Shown: positions 1,847-38,057 of the stretch, in pieces
Numbering within the stretch: position 1 is the stretch's first letter
Layout of the letters: every line of letters begins with the position of its first letter
From: Bacteroidia bacterium
GTDB lineage: Bacteria; Bacteroidota; Bacteroidia; Cytophagales; JAAEPT01
Length of the DNA stretch: 38,057 bases
Assembly: GCA_030431525.1 (NCBI GenBank)
Contig: JAUIJC010000037.1
Coordinates: 1 to 38,057 of the forward strand
Reading direction: 5' to 3'
Position numbers and translations under genes: made by a program
The notes under the pieces: model-generated
Seen by the model: only the letters and a program-made list of their open reading frames with translations
Database searches by the model: none
Told to the model about the DNA's origin: nothing

Positions 1847-4033
1847 TTATGTGACTTTTGATTTATTCAGTTTTTTCAAGGGGAGGCCTGAGGTAGGTGG
1901 AAGCTCGCCAATCGTTACTTCAAGGGTGTCAGTATTCACCCCGTTTAAGACCAACATAGGGGCATGTTTTACAATTCTTTCATAAAGGGACAAGGCATTT
2001 TTGTCTGCTTGAGCCCACGACCTATTTGCCCTAAGAACTAATAGACTTGTATCCATTTTTTGTAAAAGCTCAATGGGATGTTGGTGCTGAAGCAAGCCTG
2101 GAATTTCTACAAAAACATATTCAAATTCTTGGAGGTCTTTCCCAACGAATTGTGACAATTGATCCAAGTTCCTCAGCTGGGTGAAGTTCTTGTCAACGAT
2201 ATAGTTTTTATTGCCTTCTTTACCGTCTTGTGTTCCTTCTGAAAAATCATTTTTGGGGCTTAGGTACAATACCTTATTGTTGAGGTTTCGAAGGCGATCA
2301 GCTATTTGGGTACCAATGGTGGATTTACCTTCGCCATCTTGAGTGCTAATTACAGAAATGAGTTTAGGTTGCCCCTCAGGTTTTTGGATTTCAACTGCTC
2401 CAAGGAGAATGTTTTGAGTGATTTGGTCAACTGCCCTGTTTTCTAAAGCTTGATTTTTCCCCGAAGAAGAAAGTTTTCCATTCATTTTAGGGTAGGCTCC
2501 AATAAGTTCGAGTTGGGTCGCTGTTTCCGCTCGATGTGGGATTTTCACAGAGGTGTCCAATAATTCCAACAGAACAATGATGGCAAATGTGAGGATGAAT
2601 GCCCCGACAGCCCCAACAACCATAAGTAGTACTTTTGGGACATCTGGAGTTTCTTCTGGAAAGAAAGGTTTGTCAAGTACATGAAGTCGAGAGGACATTT
2701 CAATGTTCTGTTGCTTAAGACGTGCCTCATTTAAGCTGGCCAAAAGAGACAGGTACTCCTTCTCCGAGACATTAATTTCTCGCTCTAGACGTTTCATTTG
2801 GGCTCCCAATGGCGCCATTTGATTGAAGGAACTCTCTTGTTCGGATTTCCTTTTCTCAAGGACTTCAAGTTTAGCTTGGTTTTGTTCCATGGACACCATG
2901 TTTGTGATCCACTGGCTGGCCAAGTCTTTATTAGAAACTTCCTTACTACTAATGGAGCTTCGGCCCATAATGCTTGAAATCTCTGTTCCAATCTCAGACT
3001 TGATAGCATTTGCTTTTCTTTCCAGTATAGCAATCCGTTTTTTGGCTGATGGGCTAGGGTTGGCTTCCAACAACTCTATCTTGGACATTGTTTTGGAAAG
3101 GGCGTCTCTCAGTTCAATAATGTGCGTACTGTTGAGTGCCTTTTTTTGATTGGCACCCATTTTTTTAATCAAGGTGCTTTGAACATTCTTGTTCGCGATA
3201 AGGTCAGCTTCTACCTTATGAAGATCCTCGCGTAACTTTTTCTGTTCTTCCGTCGCATTGGTTGCTTGACTTTCAAAGTTTACGATGCCCTTTTCCTTAC
3301 GGAAATTCATTAGCACATCTTCAGCCTCATCAAGCCTAGAGAAAGCCTCGTCGGTCTTTTTTTGGAAGTAGGCTACTACTGAACTGGATTGTTCTTCCCG
3401 AAGCTGTCGGTATTTGATTGTAAATACGTCTGTGAGGATTTCCAGCATATTTTTACAAACTGCTGGATCGCTGGCTTCAAAGTCAATCCGAATAAGGTCA
3501 CTACTGCCCAAACGAGTGACCACTGCTTTTTGCATTCCCTTGATTGAGTAAAATGGATGTTCGGAAAGCAGAAGTCGATAGATAGTATTGGTGTCGTTTT
3601 GGGCTTTGTAGTTTTGGATTCTCTCAATTGTATTTTCCAGGGAGTTCGGATCAACCAATTCATTCTGAAGTTCTGGGGGAATGATGGTATGGAGCTCTTC
3701 AAACCCTTTTTCTCCTAAGGTTTGTCGTTTTGGGGCTTCCAGCATTAGGTGTTCTGCCAAAAGTCTGATAGCTGTTTCTTCTTTGGTATTCCTGGAGGAA
3801 ATAATGTTGATGAGGTTATCAAACTTGTTTTCCGTACCGAGGTATTCAGCCCTTTGTTCCCCTTCCAGTGTATAGCCAGATGCAAGTCCAGTATAAATCT
3901 GCGTATAGGAGCTATATTTTTTTGGACGCTCTTTAAGTGTTGCTAAAAAGACAGCGATTGCTACGGTCAATGAAACTGTGAATAGCAGTTTCAAGTGATC
4001 TCTGAGCAGCTTAAGAAATTGGGAAAAAGTCAT
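1847..4033 (-). CDS. Wzc/GumC-like polysaccharide chain-length protein with degenerate BY-kinase domain
   Basis: This 728-residue inner-membrane protein has a first helix at about 16-34, a long periplasmic region with coiled coil (about 210-450), and a second helix at about 467-491 preceded by a PFFPEETPDVPK motif typical of the Wzz/GNVR family. A cytoplasmic P-loop domain follows. Walker A is intact (STQDGEGKST, about 563-572). The Walker A-prime position, normally an LLxDxDxR pattern, reads VLYLSPKND, and the Walker B position reads YVFVEIPG with Glu in place of Asp. The C-terminus is Lys-rich without the Tyr cluster used for autophosphorylation. The protein probably sets polymer length and links export to synthesis, with a kinase domain that may bind nucleotide but not phosphorylate. 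It sits downstream of the TolC-like gene in the same operon. Confidence 0.88.
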   Translation of the reverse strand: MTFSQFLKLLRDHLKLLFTVSLTVAIAVFLATLKERPKKYSSYTQIYTGLASGYTLEGEQRAEYLGTENKFDNLINIISSRNTKEETAIRLLAEHLMLEAPKRQTLGEKGFEELHTIIPPELQNELVDPNSLENTIERIQNYKAQNDTNTIYRLLLSEHPFYSIKGMQKAVVTRLGSSDLIRIDFEASDPAVCKNMLEILTDVFTIKYRQLREEQSSSVVAYFQKKTDEAFSRLDEAEDVLMNFRKEKGIVNFESQATNATEEQKKLREDLHKVEADLIANKNVQSTLIKKMGANQKKALNSTHIIELRDALSKTMSKIELLEANPSPSAKKRIAILERKANAIKSEIGTEISSIMGRSSISSKEVSNKDLASQWITNMVSMEQNQAKLEVLEKRKSEQESSFNQMAPLGAQMKRLEREINVSEKEYLSLLASLNEARLKQQNIEMSSRLHVLDKPFFPEETPDVPKVLLMVVGAVGAFILTFAIIVLLELLDTSVKIPHRAETATQLELIGAYPKMNGKLSSSGKNQALENRAVDQITQNILLGAVEIQKPEGQPKLISVISTQDGEGKSTIGTQIADRLRNLNNKVLYLSPKNDFSEGTQDGKEGNKNYIVDKNFTQLRNLDQLSQFVGKDLQEFEYVFVEIPGLLQHQHPIELLQKMDTSLLVLRANRSWAQADKNALSLYERIVKHAPMLVLNGVNTDTLEVTIGELPPTSGLPLKKLNKSKVT

Positions 4034-4066
4034 AGTGATCAGACTAAAATAGTTGAAAAGGGAGGG

Positions 4067-4975
4067 TTAGTACTGGATTGATTTGAGGTTTGTACCCACA
4101 GTCATCTCAAGTATTTGATAGGCCATCAAATATTTTGTTCGGGAAGTTTCTAAGGCAATGAGGCTTGTTGTGTAATCGTCAGTTACCTGTGAATAGTCAC
4201 GAAGACTTAGTTCACCATTTTTGAATTGCGTTTCAGCGGTCTGCATCTTGATATAGGCTGACTCAAGTGTTGTTGTGTTTAGCTGAAAAAGTTTGTGAGC
4301 CAGGAGAAGCTCATGATATTGTCTGATGACTGTCAATGCTAGATTCTGTTTCTCAACATCGATGGTTTGTATGGCAGACTCATACTCCCATTGAGCCGTA
4401 TTGATTCTGTTTTTTCGACTACCAATGCCTGTTTGACTAAGGGGTAAAGCAAGGTTTAAACCTACAGAGACAAGGTTAGAGAATGCTTCTGGATCAAAAT
4501 CTCCCACAACTCCACCGCCAGCTATACCAACAGTATTAAGGTTACCATAATTGTAGGTGGCAGCAGGGACAATCGCACTCAACCATTCTTTCTTTTCAAT
4601 GGCTACTCTTTCCCGTTCTCTCTCAGCAGCGGCTTCTTGCCGCTTTATGGACGGGGAGTTTTTCATTGCATGGACCAACAAGCTGTCAAGTGGTGGGATT
4701 TCAGCAACTTCCAAGGAATCTATAGAGGTTTGGAATTCGTCATTTGACTCTTGTGTGCTAACATTTTTCTTCGGTTTCCCAGTTGTACTTGTAGCAGTTG
4801 AAGATTGCTGGCGCTGTGATTGCGAATTTGTATTATTTAGAGGAACAATCTTACCGTAATTATTGCCTTGCCCGAGGCAGTAAAACCCTGTTAGACTGAT
4901 AAGGGTGAGACAAAGAAAATGACGAAAAGCTCTCACAAGGGTATCATTTAAATGTTTAACTACTATTGAGGTCAT
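4067..4975 (-). CDS. Half-length TolC-family outer-membrane protein
   Basis: The 302-residue protein has an N-terminal hydrophobic segment (about 20-35) likely to be a signal peptide, then a Ser/Thr/Gln-rich linker (about 45-85). A single outer-membrane-efflux-like repeat follows: PPLDSLLVHAMKNSPSIKRQ, a long helix, an aromatic and glycine-rich strand segment around 140-180, and a second long helix pair to the end. Classical TolC-family proteins carry two such repeats in about 420-480 residues, so this one would need more copies per channel or may only resemble half of one. It lies between the sugar transferase and the chain-length protein, where other systems have a Wza-type export porin, so a role in polymer export is likely but inferred. 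Confidence 0.75.
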   Translation of the reverse strand: MTSIVVKHLNDTLVRAFRHFLCLTLISLTGFYCLGQGNNYGKIVPLNNTNSQSQRQQSSTATSTTGKPKKNVSTQESNDEFQTSIDSLEVAEIPPLDSLLVHAMKNSPSIKRQEAAAERERERVAIEKKEWLSAIVPAATYNYGNLNTVGIAGGGVVGDFDPEAFSNLVSVGLNLALPLSQTGIGSRKNRINTAQWEYESAIQTIDVEKQNLALTVIRQYHELLLAHKLFQLNTTTLESAYIKMQTAETQFKNGELSLRDYSQVTDDYTTSLIALETSRTKYLMAYQILEMTVGTNLKSIQY

Positions 4976-5032
4976 TTTTCAAATGTTGAAGAATGACCAG
5001 AAAAAGTTGGGGTGTATTAGTTCATGACATAT

Positions 5033-6178
5033 TCAAACATCTTCGCTTTGGAACAAGGCAGGAATTGTCTTGAGGAGAAGTTTGATGTCTCCCCATAGCG
5101 AATAGTCAACTGCATATTGGTTGTCCAAATGTTTTCTTTCCTCATCTGACATTTCGCCTTTGCCTCGTTTGCTCACTTGCCAAAGTCCCGTGATTCCAGC
5201 CGGAGCCAAGAAACGTAAACTCCATTCATCTGAAGTAATGGTCTCAGCTTCGTAAAGGGGTAAAGGACGATTTCCGACGATTGACATGTCTCCTTTTAAT
5301 ACGTTGAAGAGTTGAGGAAGTTCGTCTATGCTTGTGTTTCGAATGAATTTTCCCACTCTTGTAATTCGAGGGTCGTTCTTGAATTTGATGAATGAGGTTC
5401 CATTTGATTTTTGTTTTGTACGGTACAAGTTTTCACAAATGGCTTGGTCGTGCATGTAAAGGATGGATGAGCAGGGCTGCCCCAGCTCTTCGCATTTTGG
5501 ACAAGTTGCTTGTTCTGTGCTTCCCTCGTCTTCGTTTTTATATTGGTTCAGGTGTTCTAATTCTTTAAGTCTTTTATCTGCATCAGGGTACATACTTCTA
5601 AGCTTATAGAAGTTGAAGATCTTGTAGCCTGAGCCAACCCTTTTTGATGCATAAAAAATCGGTCCTTTGGATTCCAGCCTAATTAAAAGAGCAATAATTA
5701 ATAATACGGGTGAGGAAATAAGTAGGGCTGTAGACGCAACGATGATGTCAAAAGCCCTTTTTCCTGCCGGGACTTTATGATTTGGTTCATCCAAATGTTG
5801 ACTAGGAGTACTCTTGAAGGATTTTATCGCTTCAATTCGTCGATTTAAGCGGTGCACATCAAGCGGTGCACAAAAGATGTCACTTGCTTTCCCTTTCCAT
5901 GCTGTTCTTAGAATTTCTTGATTGAGGTTTTCTGTCACTAAAAAGAATGGAAGAGGGGATTCTAATTTTCCCCAGATTCTCTCAAAGGTGCTTACCGCTT
6001 TAGGGGTGAAAAATGAGAAATCACATAAGATTGCCTTAGGTGGTTGTTTTTCTTTTTTCAGCCACTGGTAGGCATTGATGATACTGGTATGGTGAACAAG
6101 TGGATGCTTCTCATTCGCCTTTAGTGTGCTAACCACTTCCAAGTTTTTCCCAATATAGAGTGTGCGGGAGGAGGTCAT
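5033..6178 (-). CDS. Polyprenyl-phosphate sugar-1-phosphate transferase with N-terminal pseudo-receiver
   Basis: This 381-residue protein has two parts. Residues about 1-120 resemble a CheY-like receiver: an aspartate at the phosphorylation position (AILCDFSFF, D53) and a receiver-like end (GKASDIFCAPLDVHRLNRRI). The acidic pair near the N-terminus and the conserved Lys are missing. Residues about 137-381 are a bacterial sugar transferase: a membrane helix (about 143-167), KRVG, FYKLRSM, DPRITRVGKFIRNTSIDELPQL, NVLKGDMSIVGNRP and GITGLWQVS, all family hallmarks. This enzyme starts the polymer by placing sugar-1-phosphate on undecaprenyl phosphate. An extra segment at about 200-265 holds CPKC (226-229) plus Cys236 and Cys248. 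The ATG overlaps the stop of the upstream receiver gene by four bases (ATGA), implying coupled translation. Confidence 0.9.
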   Translation of the reverse strand: MTSSRTLYIGKNLEVVSTLKANEKHPLVHHTSIINAYQWLKKEKQPPKAILCDFSFFTPKAVSTFERIWGKLESPLPFFLVTENLNQEILRTAWKGKASDIFCAPLDVHRLNRRIEAIKSFKSTPSQHLDEPNHKVPAGKRAFDIIVASTALLISSPVLLIIALLIRLESKGPIFYASKRVGSGYKIFNFYKLRSMYPDADKRLKELEHLNQYKNEDEGSTEQATCPKCEELGQPCSSILYMHDQAICENLYRTKQKSNGTSFIKFKNDPRITRVGKFIRNTSIDELPQLFNVLKGDMSIVGNRPLPLYEAETITSDEWSLRFLAPAGITGLWQVSKRGKGEMSDEERKHLDNQYAVDYSLWGDIKLLLKTIPALFQSEDV

Positions 6179-6564
6179 AGCTGAAATGGAATGCGTTTAA
6201 GAATGTTATGAATTCGCAACTCAAGTTCTTCGGGGTTGAAAGGTTTCACCACATAGTCTTCAGCCCCCTTTTTCAAGCAAGTGATTTTTTGACGGGTATC
6301 TTCTTCAGCAGACAGTGATACCACTGGTATCTGCTCAAAGAAACTACTGTCTTTGAGGTGGTCAATAAGTTCCATTCCATTCATTCCTGGCATCTGTAAG
6401 TCAGCAATGATTAGGTTTGGAAGATTGCCTTCGTGAAGCCAGTTCAGGGCTTGCACTCCATCATTTTTCGTTACAACCTCATAATGATGGTTTAGGAACT
6501 GCTGTAGTAGCAGACACATAGAAGGCTCGTCGTCAACGACTAGGATTTTTTTCTTGGGTTCCAT
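6175..6564 (-). CDS. Stand-alone response regulator receiver (CheY-like)
   Basis: This is a single receiver domain of 129 residues with all catalytic features: an acidic pair (LVVDDEP, D11 and D12), phospho-acceptor D55 (IIADLQMPGMNG), the Ser of VVSLSAEED and Lys in EDYVVKPFNPEEL. There is no output domain. I chose the ATG at 6564. A TTG at 6603 would add 13 residues ahead of the fold, and the ATG at 6597-6599 is out of frame. It is the first gene of the exopolysaccharide operon and overlaps the sugar transferase gene by four bases. Since the next protein carries a pseudo-receiver, the two may interact directly. No histidine kinase gene is visible in the window. Confidence 0.9.
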   Translation of the reverse strand: MEPKKKILVVDDEPSMCLLLQQFLNHHYEVVTKNDGVQALNWLHEGNLPNLIIADLQMPGMNGMELIDHLKDSSFFEQIPVVSLSAEEDTRQKITCLKKGAEDYVVKPFNPEELELRIHNILKRIPFQL

Positions 6565-6704
6565 TTTTCTTAACGCAAGAATGGGGTGTAAGGCGTCATT
6601 CAAGGTTTACGGACTTTCAATAAAGGAGTTGTAAAGATTTCCAGGTAAAGAAAAAGCTGTGCTAAGGCATAACTTTTTTCTCCGTAGTCAGTATAGCTTG
6701 GAAG

Positions 6705-6724
6705 GAGGGGGGAATTGCCCCCTC
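6705..6724. repeat. GC-rich hairpin in the ugd leader
   Basis: A 7-base perfect inverted repeat (GAGGGGG at 6705-6711, CCCCCTC at 6718-6724) with loop GAATTG lies between the divergent receiver and ugd genes, 37 bases ahead of the ugd ATG. It has no T-run behind it in either direction, so it is probably not a simple terminator. It may be a leader structure or a protein-binding palindrome. Confidence 0.5.
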
Positions 6725-6761
6725 ACTAAAAAAACGACCCTTATATCTTTTACGTGGCAAT

Positions 6762-8114
6762 ATGAATATTACAATAGTTGGAACTGGCTATGTTGGTTTG
6801 GTAACTGGAGCCTGTTTTTCGGAGGTTGGTATCAATACTACCTGTGTGGATATTAATCTTGAAAAAATTAATCGACTCAAAAGAGGTGAGATTCCTATTT
6901 ATGAGCCTGGACTGGAGGAAATTGTTCAGCGAAATTCAAACATGAAAAGGCTTTCCTTTTCTACTTCCTTGGCAAACGAGATTAAAGGAAGCCAGGCAAT
7001 TTTTATTGCTGTTGGTACTCCTCCAATGGAAGATGGAAGTGCGGATTTGAATTACGTGCTTGATGTGGCCCGTGAGATCGGTAAAAACATTACTGAGTAC
7101 GTAGTAGTTGTTACTAAAAGCACAGTTCCTGTGGGAACTGCAAGGAAGGTTAGGGAGGCGATTGAAGAGGAGTTGTCAAAAAGAGGATTGGAAATTCCAT
7201 TTGATGTGGCTTCCAATCCAGAGTTTTTAAAGGAAGGAGATGCAATTCGAGATTTCTTAAAACCTGACCGAATCGTTGTTGGGGTTGAGTCTGATCGGGC
7301 TGAAAAAGTCCTTCGATCATTGTATCAACCTTTCTTGTTGAATGGTCATCCCATCTTGTTTATGGATGTTCCTTCCGCCGAAATGACCAAATATGCGGCA
7401 AATGCAATGCTTGCGACAAAGATTAGTTTTATGAACGACGTGGCGAATCTTTGTGAGCGACTTGGGGCTGATGTCAATTTGGTAAGGAAGGGGATAGGAA
7501 GTGATCCCCGTATTGGGAATAAATTCATTTATCCAGGAATAGGTTACGGAGGATCTTGTTTTCCAAAGGATGTGAAGGCTTTAATTCGAACTGGTCGAGA
7601 ACAGGGATATGATTTACGTGTTCTGGAGGCTGTTGACAGGGTCAATGAGGATCAGAAGGTAACGATGTTCAGTAAGATGGAGCAATATTATGGTGGAGAT
7701 TTGAAGGGGAAAAAAGTGGCAATTTGGGGGCTTTCGTTTAAGCCCAAAACAGATGATATGAGGGAGGCTCCTTCACTTGTTCTAATAAAAAAGTTATTGG
7801 AAGCAGGTGCCCAGGTAACGGCTTACGACCCCGTAGCAATGGAGGAGGCCAAAAAGTATCTTCCAAAAGATTCAATTCGTTTTAGCAATGATCCATTTGA
7901 GGCACTAATTGATGCGGATGCCTTGATGTTGGTCACTGAATGGCCTGAGTTCCGATATCCAAATTTTGAAGTAGTTAGTCGCTTGATGAAGGGCAAGGCT
8001 ATTTTTGATGGAAGAAATATCTATCTGGAAGCAGGGCTTCCCCAAATGGGCTTTGATTATGTTTGTGTTGGGGTTGGAGCTCAACAGAGAAGCAAAGTCC
8101 TTGTGAAACGTTGA
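6762..8114 (+). CDS. ugd: UDP-glucose 6-dehydrogenase
   Basis: The 450-residue enzyme oxidises UDP-glucose to UDP-glucuronate in the cytosol with two NAD+. The Rossmann motif GTGYVGL is at 7-13. The sequence also has the conserved EPGL (48-51), GTPP (85-88), STVPVGT (120-126) and NPEFLKEGDAI (152-162) segments, and the catalytic loop GYGGSCFPKD with Cys266. The C-terminal domain (about 310-430) carries WGLSFKPKTDDMREAPS. The length and every signature fit the family. It is followed by a terminator and then by uxs, the next enzyme of the pathway, and diverges from the exopolysaccharide operon, which probably uses its product. Confidence 0.97.
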   Translation: MNITIVGTGYVGLVTGACFSEVGINTTCVDINLEKINRLKRGEIPIYEPGLEEIVQRNSNMKRLSFSTSLANEIKGSQAIFIAVGTPPMEDGSADLNYVLDVAREIGKNITEYVVVVTKSTVPVGTARKVREAIEEELSKRGLEIPFDVASNPEFLKEGDAIRDFLKPDRIVVGVESDRAEKVLRSLYQPFLLNGHPILFMDVPSAEMTKYAANAMLATKISFMNDVANLCERLGADVNLVRKGIGSDPRIGNKFIYPGIGYGGSCFPKDVKALIRTGREQGYDLRVLEAVDRVNEDQKVTMFSKMEQYYGGDLKGKKVAIWGLSFKPKTDDMREAPSLVLIKKLLEAGAQVTAYDPVAMEEAKKYLPKDSIRFSNDPFEALIDADALMLVTEWPEFRYPNFEVVSRLMKGKAIFDGRNIYLEAGLPQMGFDYVCVGVGAQQRSKVLVKR

Positions 8115-8130
8115 CATTCATTTAGAAAAG

Positions 8131-8156
8131 CGGGGGTGGTTTTCACTCCCGTTTTT
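8131..8156 (+). terminator. Intrinsic terminator after ugd
   Basis: An 8-base stem (CGGGGGTG 8131-8138 with CACTCCCG 8144-8151, one G-U pair), loop GTTTT and a five-T tail follow the ugd stop by 16 bases. The terminator separates ugd from uxs, so uxs may rely on readthrough or on its own promoter. Confidence 0.85.
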
Positions 8157-8188
8157 GACAAATATCAATTTTCTTTTCAATTACCAAC

Positions 8189-9163
8189 ATGAGAAAAAGA
8201 GTCTTGGTTACAGGAGGTGCGGGTTTTTTAGGATCACATCTTTGTGAGCGACTGCTAAAGGAGGGGCACGAGGTCATTTGTCTCGATAACTATTTTACCG
8301 GGAATAAGGAGAATATCCTTCACCTTTTGGATAACCCTTATTTTGAGTTAGTAAGACATGATGTGATCTCTCCTTATTATGCCGAAGTGGATCAGATTTA
8401 TAATCTGGCTTGTCCGGCATCTCCCATTCACTATCAATATAATCCCATTAAGACTGTAAAGACTTCCGTGATGGGCGCGATTAATATTTTGGGGTTAGCG
8501 AAGAGGGTTAAGGCAAGAGTCCTTCAGGCAAGTACCAGTGAAGTTTATGGTGATCCCTTGGTTCATCCCCAAAAGGAATCATACTGGGGGCATGTCAATC
8601 CTATAGGCCAAAGAGCCTGTTATGATGAGGGAAAGCGATGTGCTGAGACCTTGTTTTTAGGGTATCACACCCAAAATTCGGTAGAGGTGAAAATCATGCG
8701 GATTTTTAATACCTATGGACCGAGGATGCATCCAAATGATGGGCGAGTGGTCTCAAACTTTATAATGCAGGCTTTAAGGGGGAAAGATATTACGGTCTAC
8801 GGTGATGGAATGCAGACCAGAAGTTTCTGTTATGTAGATGATAATATTGAGGGCATGGTTCGTCTGATGAATTCAAGAGAAGGATTTATTGGTCCTGTCA
8901 ATATTGGTAATCCTCATGAAGTGACTATTCTGGATTTAGCAGAACGCATTATTGATCTTACGGGTAGCAAGTCCCAGATTGTGTGCAAGCCACAGCCTGC
9001 AGATGACCCGATGCAACGCCAACCGGATATTACAATGGCAAAAGGTGAATTGGGTTGGGAGCCGGTAGTTCCACTTGAAGTGGGCTTGATGAAAACTATT
9101 GAGTATTTTTCAGGCCTGTTGAAGACCAATCCTAAGATTTTACATCAGTTGGTCTACCGTTGA
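8189..9163 (+). CDS. uxs: UDP-glucuronate decarboxylase (UDP-xylose synthase)
   Basis: This 324-residue short-chain dehydrogenase/reductase converts UDP-glucuronate to UDP-xylose using bound NAD+. It has the Rossmann motif GGAGFLG (9-15), the UXS hallmark [13 protein letters not shown] (71-83), the TSEVYGDP segment, the catalytic Tyr145 and Lys149 in ACYDEGKR, and [22 protein letters not shown]. These features separate it from other epimerases such as GalE or RmlB. Length is normal for the soluble bacterial form, with no N-terminal membrane anchor. Directly downstream of ugd, it completes UDP-glucose to UDP-xylose, presumably for the sugar transferases encoded nearby. Confidence 0.95.
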
Positions 9164-9188
9164 AAAGGGCTTTAAATATTGATTGTCT

Positions 9189-9228
9189 AGAGGCTGTCTT
9201 AAAAGTCAAGATAGTCTCTTTTTTTTTT
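9189..9228 (+). terminator. Intrinsic terminator after uxs
   Basis: A 12-base stem (9189-9200 with 9208-9219, two G-U pairs), a 7-base loop and a run of nine T residues follow the uxs stop by 25 bases. The rest of the gap up to 9397 is AT-rich and holds only a small GAGGA-TAC-TCCTC palindrome at 9357-9369. Confidence 0.93.
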
Positions 9229-9397
9229 GCTCAAAATCGTAAATGATGGATGCTTAACTGGTTGGTAATAAGCTGAAAATAATAATGTTAATTAATGGGG
9301 TGGATTTTTTGATCTTTTCTTTTAAGGCCGTCCTTTTTACAATGGGAAAAAAATAGGAGGATACTCCTCAATACCCTATTTCATCGTAAAAGGAATT

Positions 9398-10222
9398 ATG
9401 AATAGTTCCTCTTTTCTTTTGTCTAAAGATGTCCACCCATTGTACACAAAGTTGAACCATGAGTTAACAACTCTATTAGCTAAGCTACATCCTGAAGATT
9501 GGAAAAGGAAAGTTCCTTCTTCAAACTCTACAGTCTTAGATCTGGTTCTTGGGTTGTTAGAGATGGATCTAAAAAAATTGACTGAGGAGAGGGATGGTGG
9601 ACGCTGGCTAATAAGTGAAAAGGAAGAAGTTCAGTTCCTTGATTTTTTAGTCTTCAAACAAAATAAGTGGATAAGGACGAATAGAACCATAAGCCCAAGA
9701 ATTCTCGTTGGTTGGATGAGATGGGCTGGGGAGCAGGTTATTGAGTTGGGTCGAATGCAATGCCTTAATGTCGGAGAGATGGGCCATCTTCCTTGGTTTG
9801 ATTCCAAAGTCTTATTGGTGTCCAGAACCTTTTTGATAGGTTGTGAATACGTTCGGAGGGCAATGCATCAGGAATGGCTTAGAATGGCTTTGAACAAACC
9901 TTCTTTGAAAAATAGCCCATTGTTTTTTCCAGTGTTTGACTTCCTGATAAGGGGAGTCACCCATTATTGGAAAGGTCCCTTTTCGGATACAGGGACTACA
10001 ATAAAATTGGTGATTGAAGGTATGGGTGGAGGAACATGGGTTTTAAGAAATGGGGAGGATGGTTGGAGTGTGCATTTAGATCAACCAATTGGCAAGGGTT
10101 CAAAAATTCCGAAGATTTCGCTCTCTCCAGAGCTTGCTTGGAAGCTTCTTCTCAGAAAGGATGGAGAAAAATTACTATCAAAGTTTCTTCAAACAAGGAC
10201 AAGTCAGCGAAAGGCCGCATGA
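9398..10222 (+). CDS. DinB/maleylpyruvate isomerase N-terminal-like protein
   Basis: The 274-residue soluble protein begins like the DinB/MDMPI_N fold: LYTKLNHELTTLLAKLHPEDWKRKV followed by TVLDLVLGLLEMDLKKLTEERD. In functional relatives this second helix carries a metal-binding His (pattern xxAHLxDx); here the position is Gly, and later metal His residues are not obvious. The C-terminal 80 residues (LVIEGMGGGTWVLRNGEDGW, then ISLSPELAWKLLLRK) resemble the SCP2-like tail of the same proteins. It may be a non-metal scaffold or a divergent transferase. It stands alone after the uxs terminator and overlaps the convergent gene at its 3-prime end by 19 bases. Confidence 0.6.
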   Translation: MNSSSFLLSKDVHPLYTKLNHELTTLLAKLHPEDWKRKVPSSNSTVLDLVLGLLEMDLKKLTEERDGGRWLISEKEEVQFLDFLVFKQNKWIRTNRTISPRILVGWMRWAGEQVIELGRMQCLNVGEMGHLPWFDSKVLLVSRTFLIGCEYVRRAMHQEWLRMALNKPSLKNSPLFFPVFDFLIRGVTHYWKGPFSDTGTTIKLVIEGMGGGTWVLRNGEDGWSVHLDQPIGKGSKIPKISLSPELAWKLLLRKDGEKLLSKFLQTRTSQRKAA

Positions 10223-10596
10223 ACAGAAGTTACAAGAATCGTGTCTGCTTCCAGAGGAGCGTTACGGGGATATGTTATTCTGTAAAGGGATGTTCTTAAG
10301 GAATTGATTTCTGCTTTTTGAATCAGTTGTTCCAGAAAGGGTGCGCTTTCATTTCTGTGGTAATGATTACGCGCCAAATAGTTGAATGTGCTGGGTTGAA
10401 TGTGAAGGTCACGGGGACGAAGTTGTCTTACTGCTCCGTCTTGTTCTAATGTGACAAAAAAGGTTTCAACCTGTTGTTTTAAACGAATTTTTTCAGAGAA
10501 CATACCCATTCGCATAAATGGGAAGAAATCTGTTAACAGGAAGAAGGGGAGGCTACTGAAAAATAGTAAGCCGATAATGAGTTGATTCTTGTACAC
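10204..10596 (-). CDS. Small membrane-anchored protein of unknown function
   Basis: The 130-residue protein has an N-terminal hydrophobic segment (about 5-27, rich in Leu and Phe) followed by FPFMRMGMFSEKIRLKQQ and a soluble tail. The best start is GTG at 10596, because the next in-frame ATG (residue 28) would remove the membrane segment. No known domain is recognised; the PFxRMGMF motif after a helix recalls small proteins encoded near DoxX/HTTM-type membrane proteins, but that is weak. It follows a TerB-like gene, from which it is separated by a strong terminator ending almost at its start codon, and overlaps the convergent gene downstream. Confidence 0.55.
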   Translation of the reverse strand: MYKNQLIIGLLFFSSLPFFLLTDFFPFMRMGMFSEKIRLKQQVETFFVTLEQDGAVRQLRPRDLHIQPSTFNYLARNHYHRNESAPFLEQLIQKAEINSLRTSLYRITYPRNAPLEADTILVTSVHAAFR

Positions 10597-10597
10597 A

Positions 10598-10627
10598 GAA
10601 AAAAACCTGCTGAAAAATCAGCAGGTT
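10598..10627 (-). terminator. Intrinsic terminator after the TerB-like gene
   Basis: A 10-base perfect stem (10604-10613 with 10618-10627), a 4-base loop and a T-run on the minus strand lie 13 bases after the stop of the TerB-like gene. The T-run ends two bases before the GTG start proposed for the next gene. Confidence 0.9.
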
Positions 10628-10639
10628 GTAGGTATAAGA

Positions 10640-11089
10640 TTAAAGTCGTTGAATTTCCGGCATTTCAGCAAGACCTTCCTTGAGGTCTGACAAGGAAACC
10701 TCAAGATCCTTTCTTGCACGGTTGATCCATTCAATTTCTTCAGAATCAATATTCTTTGAGCTGGTCTCCCAAATTTCCACATTGGATTCTTCCCCATTTA
10801 CGGAGGAAGAGGCAACTGCGGCAACTTGATACATCCATGCTACCGCTTTTACCCGTAGACGGGGCTTTTGGGTTTTCATGGTTGCAATGGCTAAACGATA
10901 AATTTTGTCATCATCGTTAATTCGTTCAGCCTTTTCATTAAAGGTCTCGATGGCCTTCTCCCTGATGCCCTCATGGGCAAACATCTGAACACAGGCGTCG
11001 ATTTCCTGGATTTGGTTTTCTCCGTCGGCCCAAGCAACAACAGAGGTCAAGGCGAGAAGTGCCTCATGGTGGTTAAATGTCTGTTTCAT
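10640..11089 (-). CDS. TerB-like protein
   Basis: This 149-residue, acidic, helical protein starts with HHEALLALTSVVAWADGENQIQEIDA, close to the TerB pattern in which an ALxxxVAxADGxxxxxE motif precedes repeated helices. TerB domains occur in tellurite-resistance and stress-linked proteins and bind metal through acidic residues. Only the first helix pair is well matched; the tail (VNGEESNVEIWETSSKNIDSEEIEWINRARKDL) is unlike standard TerB. It has no signal peptide or membrane segment, so it is probably cytosolic. No other ter genes are nearby, so a tellurite role is not supported here. Confidence 0.55.
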   Translation of the reverse strand: MKQTFNHHEALLALTSVVAWADGENQIQEIDACVQMFAHEGIREKAIETFNEKAERINDDDKIYRLAIATMKTQKPRLRVKAVAWMYQVAAVASSSVNGEESNVEIWETSSKNIDSEEIEWINRARKDLEVSLSDLKEGLAEMPEIQRL

Positions 11090-11220
11090 CTCTATCAGCT
11101 AATATCGAGAACCCATTGCAAAACAACGAATGGAGCTATTTGTCCATTTAAATTAAATATATCCAAAAAATGAAATTATTGGAAGCAACGGGTTCTGGAA
11201 TTTTTTGGAAATAGAGTCTT

Positions 11221-12399
11221 TTATCTACGTTTTGCTTTTTCCCAAAGGACGGTTTGTTGTCCCTTGATATATCTTCTAAACCCAAGAAAAACCGAAAGGT
11301 TCATCATGACGAAGTAATAAGGAACAAAAAGTGCTTTTATTCGAACCTGGTGGTTTTCCAGGTGCCATCCCAATAAGGCCATGAGATAAAATGTCCCTTG
11401 GGCGTAAAGGATTGTTCTATAGATGGAATGACTTTCTAAATCTATTGCTAACCATAGATTTACAGGGATGAGGAGCAGCATGGCAAGGGGGGCGATTGTC
11501 CAGCGCATGACCCTGTGAGAGATGTACTGCCAAGAAAGGATTCCGTGTTTAAACGGGTTTAATAGGGTGCTAAGTCGAACAATGGCTTGGTGTCCTCCAG
11601 CAGATATTCGAATTTTTCGTTTCAATTCCTCCTTGACACAAGCGGAAGCGGACTCAGAAGCCTTGGCGTTTGGTTCGTATACTACTCGATATCCTTGAGA
11701 AGCAATTCTAAGAGACATCACAAAGTCATCGAGAATGGTGTCCTTTTCAACATGTTCAAATAGGTCTGTACGGATGGCAAAAAGTTCTCCGGCTGCACCC
11801 ATGGCGCAATACAGCTCGGAATCTAATCTTTTTAGCGCTGACTCATATTTCCAGTATAGGCCTTCTCCAGCACCGCTGGCCGTTTCTGAAGATTTTTGTC
11901 GAATGTGCTTTTCCCCAGCCACACATCCTACACCATCATTTTGAAAGTGTTTTACAAGCTCCTTGATTGCTTCCCGATTTAGGTCTGTATTGGCATCTGT
12001 GAATACAACGATATCGGAATCGACAAATCCCATCCCACGATTCATGGCCATTATTTTTCCAGCACGTTGGGGGTGGTGCAAGACCTGAATGCCAAATTCC
12101 TGGTATTCCTGAAGTTTTTTGGGTGTTCCGTCGTCTGATCCATCAGTGACGAACATGATGTTAAGTTTGTCTTCTGGGTAATCCAGTGCTAAGCAGTTGG
12201 CAACCTTTTCATCCATATAGTCCACTTCATTGTAGGCAGCAATGAGCAGGGTGACTGTAGGGGCCTTGGCTTCATCAAATCCATTAACCTTTGTTTTGAA
12301 AAATAGACGTTTAACCTTGACCATTAGGTAAAGGATGATGCCATAGCCGAGATAGGCGTAAAAGACAATGAATATTAATGTCCAGAATAGAAAGGTCAT
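11221..12399 (-). CDS. Membrane glycosyltransferase, family 2
   Basis: This 392-residue processive-type GT2 has one N-terminal helix (about 3-27), a cytosolic catalytic domain and two to three C-terminal helices (about 300-320, 330-345, 355-375). The GT-A motifs are present: TLLIAAYNE (50-58), the nucleotide-binding VTDGSDDGT (84-92), FTDANTD with D135 as the metal ligand, and the acceptor-base region ILDDF (D224, D225). A QxxRW-like site is replaced by KRKIRISAGGHQ (261-270), close to what chitooligosaccharide or hyaluronan-like synthases carry. It starts nine bases after the acyltransferase stop, so the two genes are co-transcribed. The polymer or glycolipid product is unknown. Confidence 0.87.
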   Translation of the reverse strand: MTFLFWTLIFIVFYAYLGYGIILYLMVKVKRLFFKTKVNGFDEAKAPTVTLLIAAYNEVDYMDEKVANCLALDYPEDKLNIMFVTDGSDDGTPKKLQEYQEFGIQVLHHPQRAGKIMAMNRGMGFVDSDIVVFTDANTDLNREAIKELVKHFQNDGVGCVAGEKHIRQKSSETASGAGEGLYWKYESALKRLDSELYCAMGAAGELFAIRTDLFEHVEKDTILDDFVMSLRIASQGYRVVYEPNAKASESASACVKEELKRKIRISAGGHQAIVRLSTLLNPFKHGILSWQYISHRVMRWTIAPLAMLLLIPVNLWLAIDLESHSIYRTILYAQGTFYLMALLGWHLENHQVRIKALFVPYYFVMMNLSVFLGFRRYIKGQQTVLWEKAKRR

Positions 12400-36210: not shown

Positions 36211-37620
36211 TTAATAACCGAAGATTTCTTCAAGGCTTAATTCCTTAACCGTTCCGTATTTGCTCAATGAACTTGGGCTAACCCTGTCCTTTGAAGCAAT
36301 AATTAGGAGCACCTGTGGCTTGTCACCCACATATTCTTTTCGGAACTGCTCGATGGCTGGCAAATCAATACCGTCGAGTTCTGTGTAGACATCCTTACGG
36401 ATATCGTGGTCCAGTCCCAATTTTTTGGCCTGTTCATAATTGAATAGGACACCTGTTTTAGTGATGCGTTGGGTTTCCATGGTGCTTTTGATGGACTGCT
36501 TGGCATTATCAAAAGCAAGTTGGGATTGTGGCATTTCATTCAACAGGGCAATCATACCATCCAACGCCTCAGGAAGCTTATCCGCCTGCGTTCCGATGTA
36601 AGCCACCGAATAGTTGTGGTCCTCTTTTTCCTTGGCAACGCTATAATAGGAGCGAACGGCATAGGCCAAAGCCTTTGACTCACGCATTTCTTGGAATACA
36701 ATGGAGCCCATGTTTCCACCGAAATACTCGTTGAACATGGTGCTTGTTGGAACAAGGCTTGGGTCGTACAAGACCGAGCGGTTCAGCATGATGACTTCAG
36801 CCTGAACCATGTCGTATTCCACGAAGTATACCAAAGGTTGGTCAGTAGCCAATTGTGGGAATTCCTTTTCCTCAGGAATTTCCATGCGCTCGTCTGGCAC
36901 CTTATGGAACTTGTTCAACTTCTTCTCCAAAGAAGCCAATTCTTCAGGACCATAATAGAGCACGCGGTGAGGGTAGCTCTCCAATTGGGAAATAATCTTT
37001 GTCAGCTCATTCGGGTCGGTAGCCTTTAGCTCTTCTTCCGAAATGATGTTAGTGAATGGCGATTCAGAACCGTATTTGGCGTAGCTGACCATAGCTGAAC
37101 GCAGGATAGTTCCCTTATTCAGTTTGGCATCTGCGCGTGATTTGAGGATACGTCCAACCAATTCTTGGTAGGCAACCGTGTCTGCCACTGGGGTTTTCAA
37201 GAACTCTTCGAAGAGCTGTGTGGCAGGGTCAAAGTTTTCTTGCAATCCACTTAGGGTCACATAGACTTGATCATCCGAAGAGAAAACATCGAAGCTACAT
37301 CCAAGCTTGTAGAATTCCTTTTTGAGGTCCTCAGCGGAATATTTTTCACTTCCGATATAGTTGAGGTAGCTGATTGCCAACCCAATTTTCGGGTCGTTGT
37401 TCGTTCCCATGTCAAAGACATAGTAAAGGTTGAACAACCCATTTTCCTTATTCTTGTTGTAGAATACAGGAGTTTCTGATTTCAGATTTCCCTTTTTGAT
37501 ATCCTTCTCGTAATCCAAGAACACAGGTTGGATAGGCTCCACTTCCTCACTCATGATTTTGTTGAAGAACGGGGAGTTGGTTTCCCTGTTCACCTGCACT
37601 GGGGTGATTTTTGGCTTAGG
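36211..37620 (-). CDS. M16 (insulinase-type) peptidase, C-terminal half only, 5-prime truncated
   Basis: The frame encodes about 470 residues that match the second half of a two-lobed M16 peptidase of about 950-980 residues: the linker (PKPKITPVQVNRETNSPFFNKIM), IQPVFLDYEKDIKK, VFYNKNKENGLFNLYYVFDMG, YLNYIGSEKYSAEDLKKEFYKLGCSFDVFSSDDQVYVTLSGL, YAKYGSESPFTNIISEEEL, EVIMLNRSVLY and EYFGGNMGSIVFQEMRESKALAYAVRSYYS (the last being the R/Y substrate region). The active-site HxxEH half is missing: near 37620 the sequence becomes unrelated, so no true start exists. A TTG at 37668 and an ATG at 37554 (internal) are the only starts. This half alone should be inactive. Natural truncation or a chimeric join is possible. 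Confidence 0.85.
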   Translation of the reverse strand, partial: PKPKITPVQVNRETNSPFFNKIMSEEVEPIQPVFLDYEKDIKKGNLKSETPVFYNKNKENGLFNLYYVFDMGTNNDPKIGLAISYLNYIGSEKYSAEDLKKEFYKLGCSFDVFSSDDQVYVTLSGLQENFDPATQLFEEFLKTPVADTVAYQELVGRILKSRADAKLNKGTILRSAMVSYAKYGSESPFTNIISEEELKATDPNELTKIISQLESYPHRVLYYGPEELASLEKKLNKFHKVPDERMEIPEEKEFPQLATDQPLVYFVEYDMVQAEVIMLNRSVLYDPSLVPTSTMFNEYFGGNMGSIVFQEMRESKALAYAVRSYYSVAKEKEDHNYSVAYIGTQADKLPEALDGMIALLNEMPQSQLAFDNAKQSIKSTMETQRITKTGVLFNYEQAKKLGLDHDIRKDVYTELDGIDLPAIEQFRKEYVGDKPQVLLIIASKDRVSPSSLSKYGTVKELSLEEIFGY

Positions 37621-38057
37621 TACCTTTAAGGCTGCTGCGCAAGATGTGCAGCTTTCGTTGAGGTACAATTTGGTTGAGGCTCGTTATGAGTTGTATGCCC
37701 GCCCTTCAGCCCCTAATCCGACATTTTTTTGGGGGCCTTCACAAATTTCGATTGTTGCACCAGAAAGCATGCCCGATGCGGCATTTGTAGTGACTAGTGT
37801 AGCTGCGGGGAGTTGGGCTGATAATTTCCGTATTTATGCCCCTGTTTCTGCACCTGGGTCTGATTTCCACGGGCTGGGGTCGCTTGGTGCTCCGGTAGAC
37901 TTCAGTACTGGAGGCGAAGTACTTATTTTGCACTTCACGCTGCCCGGAGGCGGCTGTATTGATGGGCTGCGCCTTTACTCGAATGGCATCGATCCTGGTT
38001 CTTCAGACCCTGGCATGGGGGGGAGCGATTTTACCAATACCATTTTCGGTGCTTCCC
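37553..38057 (+). CDS. Partial secreted protein of type IX substrate style, runs off the window
   Basis: One plus-strand frame is open from an ATG at 37553 to the window end. From about 37628 it reads as real protein: AAAQDVQLSLRYNLVEARYE (an AxAQ signal cleavage site followed by the mature start), YARPSAPNPTFFWGPSQISI, NFRIYAPVSAPGSDFHGLGS, GEVLILHFTLPGGGCIDGLR, LYSNGIDPGSSDPGMGGSDF. The pattern xARPxxPxxxFxWGPSQxSxVxPxSxPD recurs in Lewinella/Saprospira-type T9SS-sorted proteins as I recall them. The region is about 53% GC, against about 39% just before. The first 25 residues come from the antisense of the M16 gene, so the true signal peptide and start may be missing. Confidence 0.65.
   Translation, partial: MILLKNGELVSLFTCTGVIFGLGTFKAAAQDVQLSLRYNLVEARYELYARPSAPNPTFFWGPSQISIVAPESMPDAAFVVTSVAAGSWADNFRIYAPVSAPGSDFHGLGSLGAPVDFSTGGEVLILHFTLPGGGCIDGLRLYSNGIDPGSSDPGMGGSDFTNTIFGAS

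Follow-up and report, generated by a model that had tools for sequence, protein, structure and literature searches.

The window, the whole stretch of 38,057 nucleotides analysed here, was identified by a search of its own assembly as a complete contig, C63, of a draft genome of 4,236,503 bases in 75 contigs that is estimated to be 99.97% complete and 0.23% contaminated. Close to its right end two gene pieces meet, and the features there and at the start of a second contig, C8, are as follows.

36211–37629, minus strand: C-terminal half of an M16 (insulinase-like) peptidase, 472 aa, based on Pfam PF05193 and PF00675, on its relatives and on the N-terminal half found in the same genome.
37626–37640, no strand: very probable chimeric junction; homology to the peptidase reaches about 37628–37629 and that to the secreted protein sets in no more than about 25 bp away, the exact base not being fixed.
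37628–38057, plus strand: apparently misjoined tail, a piece of a secreted-protein gene seemingly cut at its leader and cut at the contig end, based on its single copy in the genome, its relatives in families f11 and f74, and its composition.
37553–38056, plus strand: presumably artificial ORF made by the join, with an ATG antisense to the peptidase and reading into the tail gene; codons 1–25 lie opposite the linker region of the peptidase, on the antisense strand.
C8 2–1603, minus strand: N-terminal half of the peptidase, 534 aa, with the motif HYLEH and a C-terminal ...ENYDDNYVLV at base 2.

The minus-strand ORF on C63 spans 36211–37668 and was assigned to the M16 peptidases by its Pfam domains, Peptidase_M16 and Peptidase_M16_C both scoring above the cut-off in this half as well as in the C8 half. 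The HXXEH zinc motif is absent from the C63 half, whose only strong match in its own genome is C63 itself, the other being one of 35 bits on C26. Some match to the peptidase was found in 25 of the 29 genomes searched, its own included, and the named relatives are all titled as Bacteroidetes or Bacteroidota groups, which suggests that the organism belongs there too. In the eleven strongest other genomes the matching frames have 968–1018 codons, and the alignment begins at residues 11–15 of the window protein, in one case at residue 2; in a second collection it begins at residues 13–15 in 20 of the 23 loci, while of the remaining three, two begin at residues 46 and 391, each at the start of its contig, and L042 begins at residue 1. 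The sequence common to the relatives begins, by alignment, at the LKVPKP codons, at about 37628. The abrupt stop of peptidase homology reported in the initial annotation is thus confirmed, but its position is not about 37620 as had been given there.

The same annotation held that the catalytic half was missing from C63, and indeed the half carrying the zinc motif sits on C8 (2–1603, minus). A profile made from the N-terminal halves of eight relatives and run against the own genome scored 798 bits at C8:2–1417 on the minus strand, running off the contig start, and its only other matches, of 63 and 35 bits, were on C21. This half contains HXXEH (GLAHYLEHILFKG) with a downstream Glu (LEAVYEEKN), residues which we take to have their usual roles in the zinc motif. 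The two halves were then used as tblastn queries in 42 relative loci, 35 of which match both, and the spacer separating the last residue of the C8 half from the first of the C63 half, extrapolated where an alignment ended a few residues early, is exactly 10 codons in 31 of these 35 loci; it is 9 codons in one, and 7, 24 and 25 codons in three distant paralogues. Across the 32 loci whose spacer measures 9 or 10 codons, identity is 44–64% in the N half and 31–54% in the C half. The earlier homology starts in L042 (residue 1) and L009 (residue 2) were interpreted as chance extensions, since these loci have the same 10-codon spacer. Orientation fits as well, the plus strand of C63 continuing into the plus strand of C8, so that either half is strongly matched at a single site, which has the expected position and direction, keeps the reading frame and agrees with the 10-codon spacing. 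Because this spacing recurs in 31 of 35 relative loci, the peptidase gene appears, as judged from sequence comparison, to be whole in this genome and split by about 29 unassembled nucleotides between C63 and C8. Together, the two halves would form an M16 metallopeptidase (PF00675 and PF05193) of the long two-part form of about 970–1020 codons, with HYLEH and the usual linker spacing, and they differ from that form in that the gene here is divided between two contigs with a gap of about 10 codons. One of the readings first offered, in which a rearrangement exchanged the front of the gene for other DNA, finds no support, since the genome still contains that front half. Synteny between C63 and C8 gained no support from the neighbouring ORFs (response regulator, YbaK-like and PhzF-like), for which tblastn yielded no hits in the 42 relative loci, many of which have short flanks. 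Further into C8, at 3666–12000, there is a very long ORF of repetitive sequence, of which 2777 aa fall in the part read, where it is still open, with repeats of about 80 residues and an end resembling what we take to be a gliding/type IX sorting C-terminus.

How the contigs end was examined by comparing both ends of all 75 contigs, 1500 bp each (150 ends). Exact overlaps of 127 bp occur at 8 pairs of contig ends, as would be expected of a de Bruijn-graph assembly; six exact 400-bp overlaps between the all-N ends of C37 and C42 were excluded from this set. The last bases are common to another end in 86 of the 150 ends and not in the other 64, which include the left end of C8, the right end of C63 and four all-N ends. 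Over their 1500 bp, C8 left and C63 right show no similarity to the remaining contig ends at E ≤ 0.001, and therefore neither looks like a repeat boundary; likewise, 37201–38057 has no second match anywhere in the own genome, and a repeat-mediated contig break was ruled out on these grounds. Elsewhere in the assembly, short dispersed repeat families (about 80–240 bp) occur at many ends, for example C6 right, C12 left, C41 left, C67 left, C71 left and C73 right.

On the other side of the break, the proposal of a secreted protein encoded on the plus strand from about 37628 was borne out by relatives, as the homology of the clear ones begins at residues 1–9 of the stretch 37628–38056, no more than about 25 bp from where the peptidase breaks off. 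Translation of the final 429 bp gives KAAAQDVQLSLRYN...; for the ORF holding this tail no Pfam family matched at E ≤ 1, and the tail is matched nowhere else in its own genome at E ≤ 10. Among 395 genomes of the phylum, 7 match it at E ≤ 0.01, namely its own, two of family f74 that match clearly and four that match weakly, and in family f74 itself it was matched in 3 of 299 genomes. Within its own order the tail is matched in 17 of 390 genomes at E ≤ 0.001, comprising its own, 15 of family f11 and a weak one of f13 with stops; the f11 relatives have 34–55% identity (best match per genome), and no near source was found among these 390 genomes, the best relative standing at 55% protein identity. 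Matches to the tail ORF in 22 of 295 genomes of the class (own included) at E ≤ 0.1, the best other at E 0.004, were set aside as noise. Plasmids, phages, viral contigs and E. coli gave no match to the tail (E. coli by megablast only), and an origin from any of these was rejected. The clear relatives of the tail thus lie in other families (f11 and f74). In four aligned f74 relatives and two f11 relatives a hydrophobic leader, recognized by eye, lies directly before the conserved start. Because this leader sits at the point where the tail is cut, the tail gene too appears to be cut at the join and to have lost its own leader. It would thus belong to a secreted-protein family without a Pfam match (f11 and a few f74 genomes, 34–55% identity), sharing their common mature-protein start and DP.SS..GM region, and it differs from the f11 and f74 proteins in having no leader of its own and in being cut off at the contig end, about 430 bp from the join.

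Composition changes at the same place. The GC rise from about 39% to about 53% noted at first was counted exactly (0.3875 at 37261–37500 and 0.527 at 37681–37980), but the lower value is a local low, as the rest of the contig in 429-bp windows has a mean GC of 44.1% with s.d. 3.2%. None of these 744 windows reaches the 52.7% of the tail, and GC of about 50% is also seen elsewhere in the contig, at 19.8–21.5 kb. The suggested k-mer comparison, made with trinucleotides, shows the tail as unusual for its contig, its distance being reached by 7 of 744 windows (0.94%), but when the 146 N-free ends are ranked by their trinucleotide distance from the pool of ends, C63 right comes only 30th, which is not extreme, and by GC jump it comes 4th of 146; the four all-N ends were left out of these rankings. 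At N-free contig ends, 98 of 1606 windows of 429 bp reach the GC of the tail, in a set that includes other suspect ends. By composition alone the tail is moderately odd, and this is no proof of foreign origin.

A GGTACC palindrome, presumably a KpnI site, had been pointed out at the break, and it does start at 37619. However, it marks nothing, because it lies within the native codons AAG-GTA-CCT (K-V-P) of the peptidase, and it occurs 4 times in the window. A cloning site as the cause of the join was rejected on the same evidence, and the idea that the two pieces were joined in cloning is not needed.

The ORF 37553–38056, which fuses the antisense strand of the peptidase to the tail, is regarded as a by-product of the join. 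Its stretch 37553–37627 on the plus strand, antisense to the peptidase linker, reads as a hydrophobic, signal-peptide-like leader, probably by chance.

Based on these findings, we propose, with high confidence and whatever the donor, that contig C63 ends in a false join, and that the feature is very probably not biological; of the readings first put forward, the joining of two unrelated pieces in assembly is the one that finds support, given the front half at the C8 start with its 10-codon gap and the fact that the tail is clearly related to proteins of other families. The false join would have arisen during library preparation or assembly. The true chromosome would run from C63 to about 37628, through about 29 unassembled nucleotides, to base 1 of C8, with the peptidase gene intact. 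We infer that at a coverage gap C63 was extended by about 430 bp by a chimeric read or fragment, probably with DNA of another bacterium, and two genes would appear broken at one point because of this extension. Chimeric contig ends and misassemblies are known from short-read draft genomes, and the case here resembles them in the abrupt change near the end, in the breakage of both genes at one point, in the true continuation lying on another contig, and in the presence of two more foreign-looking ends in the assembly, no difference from them being apparent in the assembled sequence.

These two ends are at the starts of C40 and C28. The first, C40 (L122), has at bases 1 to about 205 a GC content of 66% and an ArdA antirestriction match. 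Next to it lies a gene that lacks its front part and has relatives with frames of 250–655 codons; the front half of this gene was not found in a search whose best E value was 0.076, on C40 itself. In C28 (L252), bases 1 to about 2700 have 62% GC and carry a GH57 branching-enzyme-like gene and a front-truncated GH77 gene without the first half of its profile, after which an S9 peptidase starts at 47% GC, which is normal. By trinucleotides, C28 left and C40 left are the two most distant of the 146 N-free ends, and both starts are probable further chimeric contig ends. Since three contigs (C63, C28 and C40) have foreign-looking tails, false joins at contig ends are the simplest account.

As to the donor, the tail has one genome match, clear relatives in other families and a composition atypical for the contig, yet its rank among the contig ends is not extreme, and on balance a foreign bacterial source is likely. 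The alternative that best survives keeps the join false and takes the tail as native DNA from an unassembled stretch of the same genome; we regard this as unlikely, if still worth weighing. The relatives of the tail in its own order mean that it could in principle be native, and its GC is within the range of the contig-end windows of this genome. However, at an estimated completeness of 99.97% the tail still matches nowhere else in the genome. Of the 15 f11 genomes, 9 carry another copy no further than 2 kb away and a tenth genome carries one at about 3 kb, while the own genome has none, and no match to the tail occurs in G001 (84% complete), the only other genome of its own family.

Real strain variation, in which part of the population would have the peptidase broken at about 37628 and joined to the secreted-protein gene and part would have it intact, agrees with the presence of both continuations, C8 and the tail, in the assembly. 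With a branch between true haplotypes, however, C8 and C63 would normally be expected to overlap, as the 8 end pairs do by 127 bp, whereas the two do not overlap and lie about 29 nt apart; the tail, moreover, begins inside a gene and has its clear relatives in other families, and we consider this reading very improbable. Still more doubtful is an insert interrupting the peptidase gene, with C63, the tail as the left end of the insert, and then C8, for which C63 and C8 do flank the break in the right orientation, but in which C8, carrying the peptidase to base 2 and sharing nothing with other ends, would need to stop fortuitously no more than about 29 nt from the other edge of the insert. Rearrangement or insertion is therefore less likely, because both need C8 to end by chance about 29 nt from the break without overlapping C63. 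That a rearrangement in a subpopulation exchanged the lost leader of the secreted protein for the hydrophobic antisense-encoded one (MILLKNGELVSLFTCTGVIFGLGTFKAAA-Q, from 37553), which, if true, would be a signal peptide born from the antisense strand of a peptidase linker, is scarcely credible.

In conclusion, the proposed false join at the end of C63 is a warning and not a discovery, as it would be an ordinary assembly artefact. The ORFs 36211–37668, the cut peptidase, and 37553–38056, the fused secreted protein, are unfit to stand in databases as real genes, and the ends of C28 and C40 look foreign too despite the contamination estimate of 0.23%.
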